Below, piece after piece: positions 2,166 through 55,590 of a DNA stretch of 64,000 nucleotides. The position numbers were made by a program, and so were the translations under genes. The stretch comes from Methylacidiphilales bacterium (GTDB lineage Bacteria > Verrucomicrobiota > Verrucomicrobiia > Methylacidiphilales > UBA1321), in assembly GCA_026225555.1 (NCBI GenBank), contig JAMFSY010000151.1, positions 62,001 to 126,000 of the forward strand, given 5' to 3'. The number at the start of each line of letters is the position of its first letter. Within the stretch, counting starts at the first letter, position 1. The notes under the pieces are model-generated. The model did no database searches. It saw only the letters and a list, made by a program, of their open reading frames with translations, and was not told the DNA's origin.

Positions 2166-3137
2166 GTGAACGATTTAGGCTCTTCACAACCGGCAAGCCA
2201 TCTCATGGACTCTTCTCTCCTGCAACTTTTCACGGCCCAAGAATTACTCCAGCGGCTCAGCGAGAAATCGAGCACGGGCGCGCTCCACGCCTTCACGCCC
2301 AAGGAATCGGCCAACATCTTCTTCAAGGAAGGCAAGATCATCGGAGCGGCCAAGGGTCTCGTCGAAGGCGAGGAAGTGGTGAAGCAGATCATGGAGTGGA
2401 AGGAAGCCCGCTTTGTCTGGCAACAGGACTGCCCGCTCGTTTCCCTCACGAAACCGATTGAAATCGAGTTCGAGGACTTCCTGATCAAGGTCAAGGCCGC
2501 GCCCAAGCTGGAGATCGGCGGCAAACTCGTCGGATCGGAAACATCCTCGATTCCGCCCAAGCCCGTTCTCGACGAATCTCCTGCGGAACTTCGGAGCACG
2601 GGCAAAGTCTTCGCCAAGGGAGCGCCCCTCCCGCCCAAATCGGCGGGAGTCGAGCCCGCGCCCATTTTCATCACCATCCCCTCCAAGGCGGCGACCACGG
2701 GCCGCATCGAGCCAAAAACTTCGAGCGGTCCAACAGCCGCCACGGAAGTGCCCGCGCTCACGGCCACAAAGAATATCAACTCGACCACGCCCGAAGGGCG
2801 GGTCAGCCGGGAGGAAGCGCTGTTGCGGAAGTTCCCCCTCTCCCTGGCTTCGGCCGGTGATGGACCGCAAAAGCGGCTGAAAATCACCCGGCTTAGCAGC
2901 CTCATCGGACGCAACCCGGCCTGTGATTTCACGATCGAGAATGGTTCGATTTCCCGCCAGCACTGCCTCCTGCAAATCACCGACCGGGGACTGCACGTCA
3001 AGGACCTCGGCACGACGAATGGCACGAAGGTGAACGGGATTCCGCTCACCGAGGGTTACGTCAACGTGGGCGACAAGCTCATGGTCGGCAACCTGGCCTT
3101 CCTGGTGGAGAAGGACGAGATCGACGTCGAGGCCTAG
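2166..3137 (+). CDS. DUF4388/PATAN-like plus C-terminal FHA domain protein
   Basis: N-terminal LLQLFTAQELLQRLSEKSSTGALHAFTPKESANIFFKEGKIIGAAKGLVEGEEV; C-terminal RLSSLIGRNPACDFTIENGSISRQHCLLQITDRGLHVKDLGTTNGTKVNG (FHA). Confidence 0.85.
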   Translation: MNDLGSSQPASHLMDSSLLQLFTAQELLQRLSEKSSTGALHAFTPKESANIFFKEGKIIGAAKGLVEGEEVVKQIMEWKEARFVWQQDCPLVSLTKPIEIEFEDFLIKVKAAPKLEIGGKLVGSETSSIPPKPVLDESPAELRSTGKVFAKGAPLPPKSAGVEPAPIFITIPSKAATTGRIEPKTSSGPTAATEVPALTATKNINSTTPEGRVSREEALLRKFPLSLASAGDGPQKRLKITRLSSLIGRNPACDFTIENGSISRQHCLLQITDRGLHVKDLGTTNGTKVNGIPLTEGYVNVGDKLMVGNLAFLVEKDEIDVEA

Positions 3138-3283
3138 AGCGTTTTTTAATTAGATCGTCGCTCTTTTTCTCCGTCATCCTGAGCTTGTCGAAGGATCAGT
3201 TTTGCCTCGGCAAAGACAACTGAACTGATCCTTCGACAAGCTCAGGATGACAGACTTTAAAGCGACTGGACGTCCTTCCAACC
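3135..3283. repeat. Nested palindromic element, family 1 copy 1
   Basis: Perfect 29-bp arms GTCATCCTGAGCTTGTCGAAGGATCAGTT at 3173-3201 and its complement at 3223-3251; diverged outer arms; left end contains the TAG stop of the FHA gene. Confidence 0.9.
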
Positions 3284-3964
3284 TCACTCGGAAATAAATC
3301 GCCCCGTGGCCAGAAAGCAGGCGATCTGGGCACAGCAACGCCGTGAACCGAGCAGACCAAAGTGGTTGATGCGGTAGGTGACGTGTCCAGCGATACCCTG
3401 AAGCCGCGTTTCCTCCACCAACACCGTGCCGTCGCTGGGCTGAGGCAAATCGGGGAAAAGATTTCCGAGCCCGAAAGGATAAGTTCCCGCCACGACACCA
3501 AGCGGGCGGCCACCGCGCCAGACGGGATCGCGGGATTGCGCCAGGTGGTCGCGCACGGTTCGCCCGATCAAGGTGACGCCGCGGGCATGGAAGCGGATAA
3601 TGCGCCGACCGATCCAACAATCGAGAAAAGGCGAACCGATGGCGACAATCCGTCCGGGCCGCGGATCGGGATCGCTCTCGAAAACGTGACGAGTCAGCAC
3701 GCCTCCCATGCTGTGGGCCACGACATGAATCACGTCGCCCTCCGACTGCCGGATGAATTCGCGCAGGCGGCCCACATTCTCCTCCAACCCGCGCAACATC
3801 GAGTGATAACGAAACTGGCGCGTTTGATAGCCGAGCCCCTTGAGCCGGCGCCGGAGCAGTGCCATCTCCATGCCGTTCACCACCGCTCCGTGGACGAAGA
3901 CGATCGTCTCCCGCGATGAGGCGGGCGGTCTCCAGGCGGGATCAAGCTCAAAACGTCCGGGCAT
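3284..3964 (-). CDS. Alpha/beta hydrolase (lipase/esterase-like)
   Basis: ETIVFVHGAVVNGMEM...VIHVVAHSMGGVLTRHVFES (nucleophile elbow AHSMGG); start placed at internal ATG MPGRFELDPAW. Confidence 0.75.
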   Translation of the reverse strand: MPGRFELDPAWRPPASSRETIVFVHGAVVNGMEMALLRRRLKGLGYQTRQFRYHSMLRGLEENVGRLREFIRQSEGDVIHVVAHSMGGVLTRHVFESDPDPRPGRIVAIGSPFLDCWIGRRIIRFHARGVTLIGRTVRDHLAQSRDPVWRGGRPLGVVAGTYPFGLGNLFPDLPQPSDGTVLVEETRLQGIAGHVTYRINHFGLLGSRRCCAQIACFLATGRFISE

Positions 3965-38238: not shown

Positions 38239-40725
38239 ATGAGCGAACCCGATTTCTCTCTCCCTGAGCGACCACCGCCCCGGCGCCGAAGGATCGCCGC
38301 GACCGCACTCCGGATCTCCCGTTTCGCCTGCCTTTCGGCCCTCTTTCTCAGTTTCACGTCGCTTCTTGGCTGGGTGCTTCATAACAACACCCTGAAGGCA
38401 TTTGACCCGGCGCATGTCAGTATCAAGACCAATGACGCCGTTTGCTGCGCTCTCGCCGCCTTGGCCCTCCTCCTCAGCTACCTCAGCTACCCGCATCGCT
38501 GGCATGCCTACCTTCGCTGGATCGTGGCCGGGATCATTGCCCTTATCGCCGTTGCCACGCTGGTCGAGTATGCCGCCCATGTCTCCCTGGGAATCGATGA
38601 ACTCATTTTCAGCGACACTCCTCCCGGGCCTGGCACGTTTTATCCGGGGCGGATGGGCCCCAATGTCGCCGTCGTTCTGCTCTGTTTCGCTGCCGCCCTG
38701 CCTCTTCTTTCCCGTGGCAAGGCCGGGGCGGCGTTTGCACAGACCCTGGGCATCACCGGCCTTTTCATCGCGGTTCTGGCCGCCTTCAGTTACGTCTTCA
38801 GCGGGGGAATCTTCCTCTCGTTCTACCACTTTACCCGGATGTCGTTTCCCGACATCGCCTGCTTCATCCTGCTCGGGATCGCCATCCTGGGAATTCGTCC
38901 CAACCGCGGTGTGGTCGCCATGTTTCTGGCCGACAATCCCGGCGGCCTGGTCGCACGACGTCTGGTTGGACCGGTCCTTCTGGGGCCGGTGGTCCTGGGC
39001 ATGCTCGCCTTTCGCGGACTGGCTCTCGGTTATTATAACGAGGCCTTCACCGGGCTTCTCGTCATCTTCTCCAACCTCGCGGTCGGCTGCCTCATCACGC
39101 TCCGCAGCATCACCTCGCTCAATCAGATCGATTCCGAACGCAGGCGCTTGAACGAAGCCCAGGTCCACGCCGAGATCCGGGAACAGGGCACGCTGGAAGC
39201 CTCGCGATTGAAATCGGAATTTGTCGCCAATGTCAGCCACGAGCTGCGCACTCCTATGAATGGCGTCCTGGGCATGACGAACCTCCTGCTCGGCTCCCCT
39301 CTCACTCCGGAGCAGCGCGAACAGGTCGAGACCATTCGCCAGAGCGGCGATGCGCTCCTCACTTTGGTCAACGAGATCCTCGACTTCTCCAAGATCGAAG
39401 CGGGCAAGGTGGAGCTCGAGCACAAACCACTCCATCTCGGCGCCTGCGTGGACGAGGTCGTGGCCCTGGTGGCGCCAATGGGCCGCCGCAGTCGGATCAA
39501 CCTGATCGCCTTCATCGATCCGAGTCTGCCCACGACCTTCCTGGGCGATACCGCCCGCCTGCGGCAGATCCTCATCAACCTCATGGGCAACGCCATCAAG
39601 TTCACCAGCGAGGGCGAGGTGATCCTCGAAGTGAACGGCGTCGTGCGGGAGGATAACCGCCACGAGATCAATTTCGTGGTCAGCGATACAGGCATCGGGA
39701 TTTCCCCCAACGCGCTGCCCCTGCTCTTCCAACCTTTTCAACAGGTTGACGCCTCGGCCCGGCGCAAGCACGGCGGCACCGGCCTGGGCCTGACCATCAG
39801 CAAGCGACTTGCGGAACTTATGGGTGGCGAAATCCACGTCTCGAGCATTCTGTCCATCGGCTCGACCTTCCGATTCAGCGTCCCGCTTCAATCCGTTCCC
39901 GGCACCCCGCCGGATGAGCAACTGCCCCCTTCCACCCGCGTCGTATTGATCGCCCGGGGCGGCAAATATCCGAGTCTGCTCCAGCGCCAGTTGGAGGCAT
40001 GGGGAGCTGATGTCCTCGCCGTACCCAACCCGCTCAGCATGCTCCATCCCCAGGATGCGCGGTTTGCCGCCGTCCTCATGGATCGCGACGAGGAAACGAT
40101 TCCGATCATCCGCCAGATGCAGGCCGATCCGATGTGGAAGGACGTGCCCAAGGTTCTGCTCGATTTCGGCGATCCCCTGCTCGAAGAGGACAAGCTCCTC
40201 TTTGCCAAGCGGATGCCCAAGCCTTTCAAGCGGAACCATCTTCATGCGTTTCTGCTCGAACGCACCGGCACGCAGATGGTGCATTCGCTCTCGCGGATCA
40301 CCTCCCCGCTGCACCAGATACCGCTCGCCCAGAAGCTTCCGTTGCGCATCCTCCTCGCCGAGGACAATTATATCAATCAGAAGGTCGCCGTCGCCCTGCT
40401 CGGCCGCTTCGGTTATCGGGCGGATGTGGCCGGCAACGGAGCCGAGGCGCTCGAGAGCGTGGTCCGCCAACCCTATGACCTCGTTTTCATGGATATCCAG
40501 ATGCCGGAAATGGACGGCATCGAATCGGCCCATGCCATGCGCCGCAAGCTCAAGGAACGCTGTCCCAAGCTCGTGGCCCTGACCGCAAACGCCTTCCCCG
40601 GCGCCCGTGAACAATATCTCGCCGAGGGTTTCGACGATTACCTGAGCAAACCGCTCGTCGCCGATGTCCTGCGCCAGGTGATCACCCGCATGGGTGAAGC
40701 CTCCCGGCCCGTGGCGGTGAGTTAG
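38239..40725 (+). CDS. Membrane hybrid histidine kinase (HisKA-HATPase-degenerate REC-REC)
   Basis: N-terminal TM helices; [65 protein letters not shown]...[16 protein letters not shown]. Confidence 0.93.
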
Positions 40726-40884
40726 ACCGCTTTCCAATTAAATGGTCGCATCAAAAATCAGTCATCCTGAGCCTGTCGAAGGATCAGTTTCGCCTCAGTA
40801 AAAGCCAAGAGGCAACCCACACGTGTGTGCAGCAAGCTCAGGAGGACTGACTTTAGAGCCACTATCTAAATGGAAATCGCTCTA
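40723..40884. repeat. Nested palindromic element, family 1 copy 2
   Basis: Outer arms TTAGACCGCTTTCCAATTAAATGGTCGC... and complement of CCTTAGAGCGATTTCCATTTAGATAGTGGC...; core GTCATCCTGAGCCTGTCGAAGGATCAGTTT; CACACGTGTG module at 40818-40827 in the right arm. Confidence 0.88.
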
Positions 40885-45920: not shown

Positions 45921-46077
45921 GCTTGGGAGCTTTCTAAAAAAGGCGGTCATCCTGAGCTTGTCGCACACACGTGTGGCAGGATCAGTTCAGATGCCTTGCC
46001 GAGGCAGAACTGATCCTTCGACAAGCTCAGGATGACCAGCTTTTTGGAGAGTGAGCCTTTTTTAGCAAGCTCCTAGG
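45921..46077. repeat. Nested palindromic element, family 1 copy 3
   Basis: Outer arms GCTTGGGAGCTTTCTAAAAAAGG (45921-45943) / CCTTTTTTAGCAAGCTCCTAGG (46056-46077); core 45946-46036; CACACGTGTG module at 45966-45975 in the left arm. Confidence 0.9.
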
Positions 46078-46405
46078 AACCGGAATCCAAGCTCGCTTCC
46101 CACCACTGCCGATAAGCCGGCGCAATTTCCTCCGGGCTGATCGCCACGACCTCGGGGCATTCGTAGGAATGGTGCAGCGCAATCAGCTCCCGCAAGACCT
46201 CGAATTGCTCTGCCGAGCTTTTGATGAGTAACTGCACTTCCGCCGTGACTTCGAGCTTCCCCTTCCACCGATAGTGGGACTCAACTCCGGGAACCAAGCT
46301 CACGCAGGCGGCAAGATGCTCCGCCCCCATGATGACCTGGGCCAATTTTTGCGCCTGCTCCAGGGAAGGCGCCGTGACAAAAACGATTCGAGGGGTGAAG
46401 GACAT
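46073..46405 (-). CDS. cutA: CutA-like divalent cation tolerance protein
   Basis: RIVFVTAPSLEQAQKLAQVIMGAEHLAACVSLVPGVESHYRWKGKLEVTAEVQLLIKSS, YECPEVVAI. Confidence 0.92.
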   Translation of the reverse strand: MSFTPRIVFVTAPSLEQAQKLAQVIMGAEHLAACVSLVPGVESHYRWKGKLEVTAEVQLLIKSSAEQFEVLRELIALHHSYECPEVVAISPEEIAPAYRQWWEASLDSGS

Positions 46406-54949: not shown

Positions 54950-55456
54950 ATGAGAAGGTATTTTCCACCGCTCGCCCTTCTCGCCATTAGTTACGTCCTC
55001 TTTTTCGCTTACGTTTATTCCTCGTATGACAGCCTGCCATCCAAAGTGGTGAGTCACTTCGACATACTGGGCCGTCCCAACGGTTGGATGAGCCGTTCCC
55101 AAGTCATCACATTCACCTTGGGATTGGGAATCTTCCTCCCCGCAATTATCGTAGGGACGATGGCGGGCGCAGGCTCTATCCCAGTCAGTTTTGTGAATCT
55201 TCCCCATCGCGAATACTGGCTCGCACCCGAGCGACGCCTAGCCACAACGGCGGTGATGCTAAAATTTGGACTTTGGTATGCCATTCTGAACGTGCTTTTT
55301 GTCACAGGCCTGCATGCCCTGATCGTGCAGGCGAATACGCGGCCCGGCGATCCGAGCTTGAATGGAGCTGGAATGATCGTCCTTCTCGGCAGTTTTATTC
55401 TTGGGACAGCCATTTGGGCCATCCTGCTCCGACGGTGCTTTGCGCGGAAATCTTAG
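54950..55456 (+). CDS. DUF1648-type membrane protein
   Basis: DSLPSKVVSHFDILGRPNGWMSRSQ (DUF1648-like) plus TM helices. Confidence 0.75.
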   Translation: MRRYFPPLALLAISYVLFFAYVYSSYDSLPSKVVSHFDILGRPNGWMSRSQVITFTLGLGIFLPAIIVGTMAGAGSIPVSFVNLPHREYWLAPERRLATTAVMLKFGLWYAILNVLFVTGLHALIVQANTRPGDPSLNGAGMIVLLGSFILGTAIWAILLRRCFARKS

Positions 55457-55543
55457 ACCATTTCCCAATCTAAACGGCCGCGTCAAAATTGCCGTCAGGA
55501 TGACCGAAGTTTTTGAAAGTGAGCCTTTTTAGCAATCTCCTGG
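55453..55543. repeat. Nested palindromic element, family 1 copy 4 (core deleted, chimeric arms)
   Basis: Left arm TTAGACCATTTCCCAATCTAAACGGCCGCGTC resembles the left arm of copy 2; right arm GGATGACCGAAGTTTTTGAAAGTGAGCCTTTTTAGCAATCTCCTGG resembles the right arm of copy 3. Confidence 0.75.
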
Positions 55544-55552
55544 ACGAAAAAC

Positions 55553-55590
55553 AAAAAACCCCGGACGAGAAAATCTCGACCGGGGTTTTT
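55553..55590. terminator. Strong bidirectional intrinsic terminator
   Basis: AAAAAACCCCGG-ACGAGAAAATCTCGA-CCGGGGTTTTT. Confidence 0.9.

Follow-up and report, generated by a model that had tools for sequence, protein, structure and literature searches.

In the 64,000-nucleotide stretch of Methylacidiphilales DNA analyzed here (the window), an FHA-domain gene (2166–3137) runs into a long palindrome (3135–3283), the left end of which is the TAG stop codon of the gene itself (3135–3137). On its other side the palindrome nearly reaches a convergent, hydrolase-like open reading frame (ORF) that ends at 3284. The 29-bp arms of the palindrome (3173–3201 and 3223–3251) match exactly, as stated in an earlier note on this DNA, and are 97% complementary when extended to 32 nt; the 21-nt loop between them contains the apical hairpin TTTGCC-TC-GGCAAA that was also described there. 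Folded as RNA, the whole element has a predicted energy of −70 kcal/mol, and a search of Rfam returned only weak, sub-threshold hairpin matches. The element consists of two inverted hairpin repeats (REPs), a spacer and two outer arms:

3135..3172, + strand: outer arm on the left, type I (TAGAGCGTTTTTTAATTAGATCGTCGCTCTTTTTCTCC), with the TAG that terminates the FHA gene
3173..3199, + strand: left REP; GTC tag, hairpin ATCCT-GA-G-CTTGT-C-GA-AGGAT, then CAG
3200..3224, unstranded: spacer of class A, containing the small apical hairpin TTTGCC/GGCAAA
3225..3251, − strand: right REP, inverted
3252..3268, − strand: right outer arm, type I, degenerate (AGACTTTAAAGCGACTG)

The REP dimer at 3173–3251 belongs to class A of the four classes defined below. 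The left arm (3135–3172) folds by itself, with AGAGCG pairing to CGCTCT ahead of a run of five T residues.

The core of the repeat was found four times in the window within three mismatches, compared with 0.18 expected. The earlier note had listed related copies at 40723, 45921 and 55453; the first two are indeed paired relatives, and the third is only a remnant. The outer arms belong not to one family but to two (I and II), which are mixed among the four copies: copies 1 and 2 have type I arms, copy 3 has type II arms, and copy 4 has one of each.

40723..40760, + strand: copy 2, left type I arm; the TAG at 40723 is the stop codon of a histidine-kinase ORF (38239–40725)
40761..40787, + strand: copy 2, left REP, with a C variant in the loop
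40814..40847, − strand: copy 2, right REP, diverged, CACACACGTGTG loop variant
40848..40884, − strand: copy 2, type I arm on the right; a convergent O-antigen-ligase-like ORF stops at its TAG
45922..45945, + strand: copy 3, left arm, type II short
45946..45985, + strand: copy 3, left REP, its loop carrying CACACACGTGTGGC
46010..46036, − strand: copy 3, right REP
46037..46078, − strand: copy 3, right arm, type II long
55453..55545, unstranded: copy 4, a remnant with a left type I arm, a GTCAGGATGAC scar and a right type II long arm, the REP dimer being almost wholly lost

The reduction of the dimer to GTCAGGATGAC in copy 4 could be a scar of excision or deletion. Directly behind this remnant, at 55554–55590, lies a hairpin resembling a conventional intrinsic terminator (AAAAACCCCGGACGAGA / TCTCGACCGGGGTTTTT). 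The REP variant with CACACACGTGTGGC in its loop (GTCGCACACACGTGTGGCAGG) is present at 45946–45985, at 40814–40847 and in many other copies, usually in one half of the dimer only, and may represent a nested insertion or an alternative loop.

Cores were counted as pattern matches on the whole genome, and the statistics on elements were collected from 0.93 Mb of its 4.09 Mb. The core GTCATCCTGAGCTTGTCGAAGGATCAG had 265 matches in the genome within two mismatches and none in a reversed control, and all 56 close pairs in the 0.93 Mb of this genome (G000) were head-out dimers, as were 44 of 44 in a sister genome (G005). The element is therefore a dispersed family rather than a single terminator; the earlier note had described it as dispersed, layered and either non-autonomous or structural. 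The palindrome is one of about 130 copies of a short DNA repeat that is probably mobile. Spacer lengths in the dimers formed two main groups, 52–60 and 87–92. The fifth stem pair in G005 was T-A in 69 halves, C-G in 21 and mismatched in none; with 21 double changes and no single change at this pair, the hairpin covaries.

The short core recurs in many genomes, as the earlier note had suggested. CGTC-tagged REPs, surveyed by Di Nocera et al. in 2013 (PMC3733652), are palindromes with an unpaired CGTC (or TGTC or CCTC) at one end, an 8–9-bp stem starting with complementary A and T, a loop of 4–5 nt and a 3-nt tail, mostly CCA; head-to-head dimers predominate, and the class includes the Neisseria dRS3 and the rickettsial RPE-4 and RPE-6 repeats. 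Nearly all REP halves in our set were preceded by CCGTC or TGTC, and we place the dimers in the CGTC class because of this tag, the AT start of the stem and the dimer form, which is head-to-head in every one of the pairs counted above. The element is built as a non-autonomous pair of CGTC-type REPs, with two inverted GTC-tagged hairpins whose tags face outwards. It shares with the REPs of the survey (PMC3733652) a structured spacer and a location behind genes and between convergent genes, and some of the known families likewise lie within longer host palindromes (H. neapolitanus). Unlike those REPs, it has a stem of five Watson–Crick pairs, starting with AT and followed by tandem GA/GA mismatches and a G-C pair, so that it reaches 8 bp only if the GA pairs are counted; the loop is the 5-nt CTTGT provided that the GA and G-C pairs are formed, and is 11 nt long otherwise. 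The tail is CAG instead of CCA, which is described as common, not universal, and which is present in the REPs that surround related nucleases in Alphaproteobacteria. Four dimer classes, A to D, are distinguished by the sequence immediately inward of the hairpin, with 72 class A and 39 class B halves in this genome.

Both families of outer arms end in YTAG, YTAA or similar and are nearly exclusive to REPs (58/61 and 35/39). An arm ended at the stop codon of an ORF of at least 100 codons in 43 of 88 cases, whereas 3.7% of positions drawn at random and 17% of YTAG sequences overall do so (Fisher, 4e-11). CGTC and GTAG dimers within host palindromes, and also REP ends that supply stop codons, are known from other species (PMC3733652). 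With gene calls approximated by the longest ORFs, the elements were enriched between convergent genes (28/61, vs. 143/611 gaps; P = 0.0006, or 6e-5 with three genomes pooled). Type II arms were paired one short with one long in all 15 typed pairs (chance 3e-5), which we read as insertion of the dimer at a single fixed spot within a host palindrome; among type I arms, unlike subtypes are combined as well. In this genome, the dimers mostly lie directly downstream of genes, at a fixed position within one of two older palindromic host repeats (arms I and II). Complementarity between an arm and its own partner is no higher than that between elements, so that the pairing of arms is not being maintained; solo arms are rare and belong mostly to truncated elements.

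Elements with one arm of each family make up 8 of 55 (among them L045, L065:7861, L066:13421, L069:1960, L079, L087:6190 and L088:10279) and may mark past recombination between dispersed copies. The REP dimers in the sister genomes G005 and G007 are mostly free of arms I and II, so that the dimer is the basic unit. Many REPs in G007 (L165–L168) are preceded by a different recurrent arm, GGAGACCTCTGCGAAACTCTCACATTTAGCATTA, and the host palindromes thus appear to be genome-specific. Synteny with relatives at the window locus was weak when empty sites were sought. We also considered the outer arms as terminal inverted repeats (TIRs) of an insertion sequence and rejected this, as no coding element bearing such arms was seen.

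A RAYT or other HUH transposase had been suggested in the earlier note as the agent that mobilizes the element. We searched this genome and 19 related genomes for Y1 genes with PF01797. The only Y1 gene of the present genome is an IS200 TnpA (NF033573, 140 bits) that scores 37.9 bits against the RAYT model, below the cut-off of 80, and has no REPs nearby; none of the 30 Y1 loci in this and the related genomes had the repeat near it, and a RAYT/HUH partner was rejected on these grounds. The tag, moreover, is GTC and not the GTAG of REPIN/RAYT systems, and the sole Y1 gene here is not a RAYT gene flanked by the same REP. Of the first interpretation, the dispersed, layered, non-autonomous element is supported and the RAYT/HUH partner is not; the four copies, moreover, are not uniform, and the partner to which the data point, a small GIY-YIG nuclease, was absent from that interpretation.

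This nuclease gene was found by seeking REP pairs with a long spacer, of which the genome contains one (L065:13519–13880). The spacer is a complete ORF for a 99-aa GIY-YIG protein with a single Pfam domain (PF01541, 4e-16). The genome has no further small GIY-YIG gene; its second PF01541 match is a UvrC-sized frame of 541 aa. The domain and the catalytic-type residues Y7, Y17, R27, H31, E65 and N84, which are conserved in 41–43 of the 43 loci of its subfamily, place the protein in the GIY-YIG superfamily. The closest solved structures by sequence are those of UPF0213 GIY-YIG proteins (PDB 1zg2, E = 2.5e-8; 1ywl, 4e-4), which differ in that the other small GIY-YIG subfamilies in the genomes searched were flanked by REPs in only 1 of 41 cases. 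Like the GIY-YIG homing endonucleases of the I-TevI type (PMC1564403), the L065 protein combines the GIY-YIG domain and catalytic-type residues with a link to mobility. Unlike them, it has only about 100 residues, one Pfam domain and no separate, NUMOD-type DNA-binding part, and its gene lies outside introns and inteins, as the spacer of a REP pair.

NCBIfam contains no model of this small nuclease, whose usual annotation is just “GIY-YIG nuclease family protein” or, erroneously, “excinuclease ABC subunit C”. In the Sphingobium deposits (L205–L206) the REP-type nuclease appears under the latter name or as “hypothetical protein”, and the family is obscured by these misleading names. Upstream of the L065 gene, the REP (L065:13478–13564) is open in frame and reads VILSLSKDQ, so that automatic gene calling can lengthen the nuclease or produce spurious ORFs across REPs of this kind.

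A tblastn search of plasmid records with the L065 nuclease, blind to repeats, yielded 35 records. The regions came from Alpha-, Beta- and Gammaproteobacteria, Cyanobacteria and Bacteroidota and mostly had local CGTC-type REPs on both sides; among the first 12 loci, too, most had local GTC-tagged palindromes at both sides. The flanking palindromes were dRS3-like in N. gonorrhoeae; Planktothrix had GTCATTCTGAGTGAAACGAAGAAT, and both Sinorhizobium and Shinella had GTCATCCTCGGGCTTGACCCGAGGAT. In Azospirillum, where the element lies between sufB and sufC, the palindrome was GTCATCCCCGCGAAGGCGGGGAT. Pattern matching for REPs on the plasmid records gave low counts (5 and 12), since the search covered replicons and not chromosomes.

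For a systematic count we used 43 non-redundant loci of the subfamily from several phyla, sampled by protein similarity from mostly incomplete assemblies, and scored a strict, outward-facing tagged hairpin within 200 bp. Such a REP was present at 30 of the 43 loci and on both sides at 15, compared with 1 of 41 (none on both sides) for other small GIY-YIG genes and 11 of 125 (none on both sides) for control ORFs in the same loci; Fisher tests gave 1.8e-11 and 2.8e-14, ignoring kinship beyond 90% identity. The subfamily profile had been seeded with eight loci already seen to be flanked by REPs, and the count is 24 of 35 when these are removed. A strict REP was lacking at 13 loci. The strict detection misses some real cases, three with clear GAGCG-type flanking repeats that close with GGACC (L172, L178 and L189) and one with GTCG tags (L205). 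The REP that flanks a nuclease is of the type abundant in the same genome, and the sequences of REP and nuclease diverge together (Mantel r = 0.23, P = 0.002). REPs of this kind are thus associated with one GIY-YIG subfamily, and specifically with that one.

Small GIY-YIG genes of other subfamilies (e.g., those with ...YLKSGSG... or KLKRQKGG) were found by ARAGORN to lie near tRNA genes for Met, Pro, Asn, Gly and Ser (L171, L181, L183, L186, L188, L190, L195, L263, L264 and L265), some with repeated tRNA pieces around them. No tRNA was detected at the six REP-type loci scanned. The tRNA-adjacent genes seem to represent another kind of small GIY-YIG element, one that targets tRNAs.

The abundance of REPs also follows the nuclease. 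Genomes of the family with a small GIY-YIG gene had 265, 207, 192, 184, 153, 46, 30 and 7 REP halves, compared with 10, 3, 2 and 0 in those without (exact one-sided P = 0.004, ignoring kinship); the genome with 7 (G003) has three small GIY-YIG matches. The single core in G025 is about 95 bp from the only GIY-YIG gene of that genome, which was left uncounted because it scores as another subfamily (56.7 bits). G030 has no copies of the first REP type and 152 of a second, which flanks its own nuclease, and G271 has just three copies of its own REP, two of which make up the pair on either side of the nuclease. In an unrelated genus (g26), three genomes with the subfamily nuclease had 177, 154 and 133 REPs, and a fourth, with a GIY-YIG gene of another subfamily, had 8.

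The dimers and the nuclease elements also share sequence beyond the hairpin. The subterminal sequence of class A (CAGTTCGGTTGC) is that of the GIY-YIG element L260, class B (CAGCYTCCG) that of L175, L177 and L196, class C (CAGACTCGTGT) that of L251, and class D (CCTCTAACTATT) that of L172 and L178. A 34-nt inverted repeat around the nuclease in L175 is identical to the ends of class B dimers, so that coding and short elements share their TIRs as in MITEs. The nuclease of the present genome is of class B only, yet class A dimers are more numerous. S. meliloti Ak57 has a full element beside an internally deleted copy that has kept the two REPs along with the 3′ portion of the gene, and Sinorhizobium K101 has neither; one site in Sphingobium is occupied by REP-GIY-REP (TomMM7A), by a single collapsed REP (TomTYG74/64) or by unrelated sequence. 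Such full, deleted and absent states are the patterns that a mobile element would be expected to leave, with none showing direction or target duplication. The Shinella comparison gave no sharp element boundary, and the Sphingobium, Shinella and arm-flank comparisons demonstrated no clean empty site, target-site duplication or transposition event. As with MITEs, there are short, repeated, internally deleted relatives of a coding element with inverted ends; unlike MITEs, the coding partner has no known transposase, and no target-site duplication was seen.

We propose, with a probability of roughly 0.6, that the GIY-YIG nuclease mobilizes the CGTC REP dimers, whose autonomous relatives would be the same REP pair with the gene for this single-domain nuclease of about 100 aa as its spacer. 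The nuclease would recognize the REP hairpin and cut near the GTC tag, and repair or replication of the cut ends would copy the REP-bounded segment into new sites, acting in cis on the nuclease gene and in trans on the short dimers. GIY-YIG enzymes hydrolyze DNA without a covalent intermediate, and joining would therefore need host repair. We infer binding, cleavage and mobilization of REPs by the nuclease as the reason for the association. The nuclease would be to CGTC REPs what RAYT presumably is to GTAG REPs, through an unrelated enzyme. As in REPIN/RAYT systems (TnpA-REP, REPtrons), a low-copy nuclease gene is bounded by inverted REPs, many short REP doublets occur per genome, and REP and enzyme co-vary; unlike them, the fold is GIY-YIG and not HUH/Y1, the tag is GTC and not GTAG, and no RAYT is linked to these REPs in the genomes examined. 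To the wider proposal, that this nuclease is the dedicated mobilizer of the CGTC REP super-family across phyla, including Neisseria dRS3, and moves it with neither transposase nor HUH enzyme, we would give even odds.

The main rival is that the nuclease is a homing parasite using existing REPs as its cleavage or insertion site, with the REPs spread by another agent that has been lost or acts in trans. GIY-YIG domains are best known from homing endonucleases (PMC1564403), the nuclease is low in copy and the REPs high, and the single palindrome of Sphingobium TomTYG74/64 sits exactly at the REP-GIY-REP site of TomMM7A, as for insertion into a REP. That case is equally readable as excision or deletion, however, and more than 100 identical sites should often be filled, whereas genomes carry one to five genes each. 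The class-matched subterminal sequence beyond the REP and the near-zero REP numbers in relatives without the gene also speak against homing, which we regard as unlikely. Mere shared preference, with small mobile ORFs and REPs gathering in intergenic space and no functional link between them, could account for the strict REPs near 11 of 125 control ORFs in REP-rich loci; the counts for other small GIY-YIG genes (1/41, never on both sides) and Y1 loci (0/30), together with the match of the flanking REP to the type abundant in its genome, make it very improbable.

The REPs might instead serve the host as hairpins between convergent genes, in termination, mRNA protection or supercoiling, with the nuclease as a domesticated processor kept near for regulation. 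The enrichment between convergent genes, the left arm ending in a hairpin and T-run, and the predicted RNA fold would all suit such a role. We nevertheless consider it quite unlikely, as it leaves unexplained the gene within a REP pair, the class-matched termini, the internally deleted copies, the insertion within operons (sufB–sufC in Azospirillum) and the erratic copy number between sister species (2 to 265). It is likewise improbable that the element is a composite MITE, in which the outer arms would be the true TIRs of a DDE element inserting at YTAR and the REP dimer its cargo. The YTAG/YTAA ends of the arms, their near-exclusive occurrence with REPs and their frequent stop codons fit that arrangement, but dimers in G005 and G007 mostly lack the arms, type II arms pair only short with long, as for insertion of a dimer into a host hairpin, we saw no transposase enclosed by such arms, and the flanking 4-mers agree between ends in some copies only.

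Mobilization by the nuclease, the reading that we prefer, bears on repeats for which no dedicated transposase had been reported. The 2013 survey found CGTC repeats not to be associated with transposase genes, and proposed extinct or borrowed enzymes; it identified no dedicated transposase and left GIY-YIG genes unconsidered (PMC3733652). A search of CC-licensed PMC text found no paper linking GIY-YIG with REPs, dRS3 or extragenic palindromes. We know of no paper that links a GIY-YIG nuclease to REPs. CGTC REPs are abundant in many bacteria, and the link names a specific candidate enzyme of about 100 residues. If the nuclease does mobilize REPs, the REP/RAYT arrangement would have a second solution, unrelated to the first, in which a nuclease without strand-transfer chemistry supports the spread of dispersed repeats. 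It would explain small GIY-YIG genes in odd intergenic places, such as between sufB and sufC, and would define a novel type of mobile element, bounded by REPs and moving independently of any transposase or HUH enzyme.
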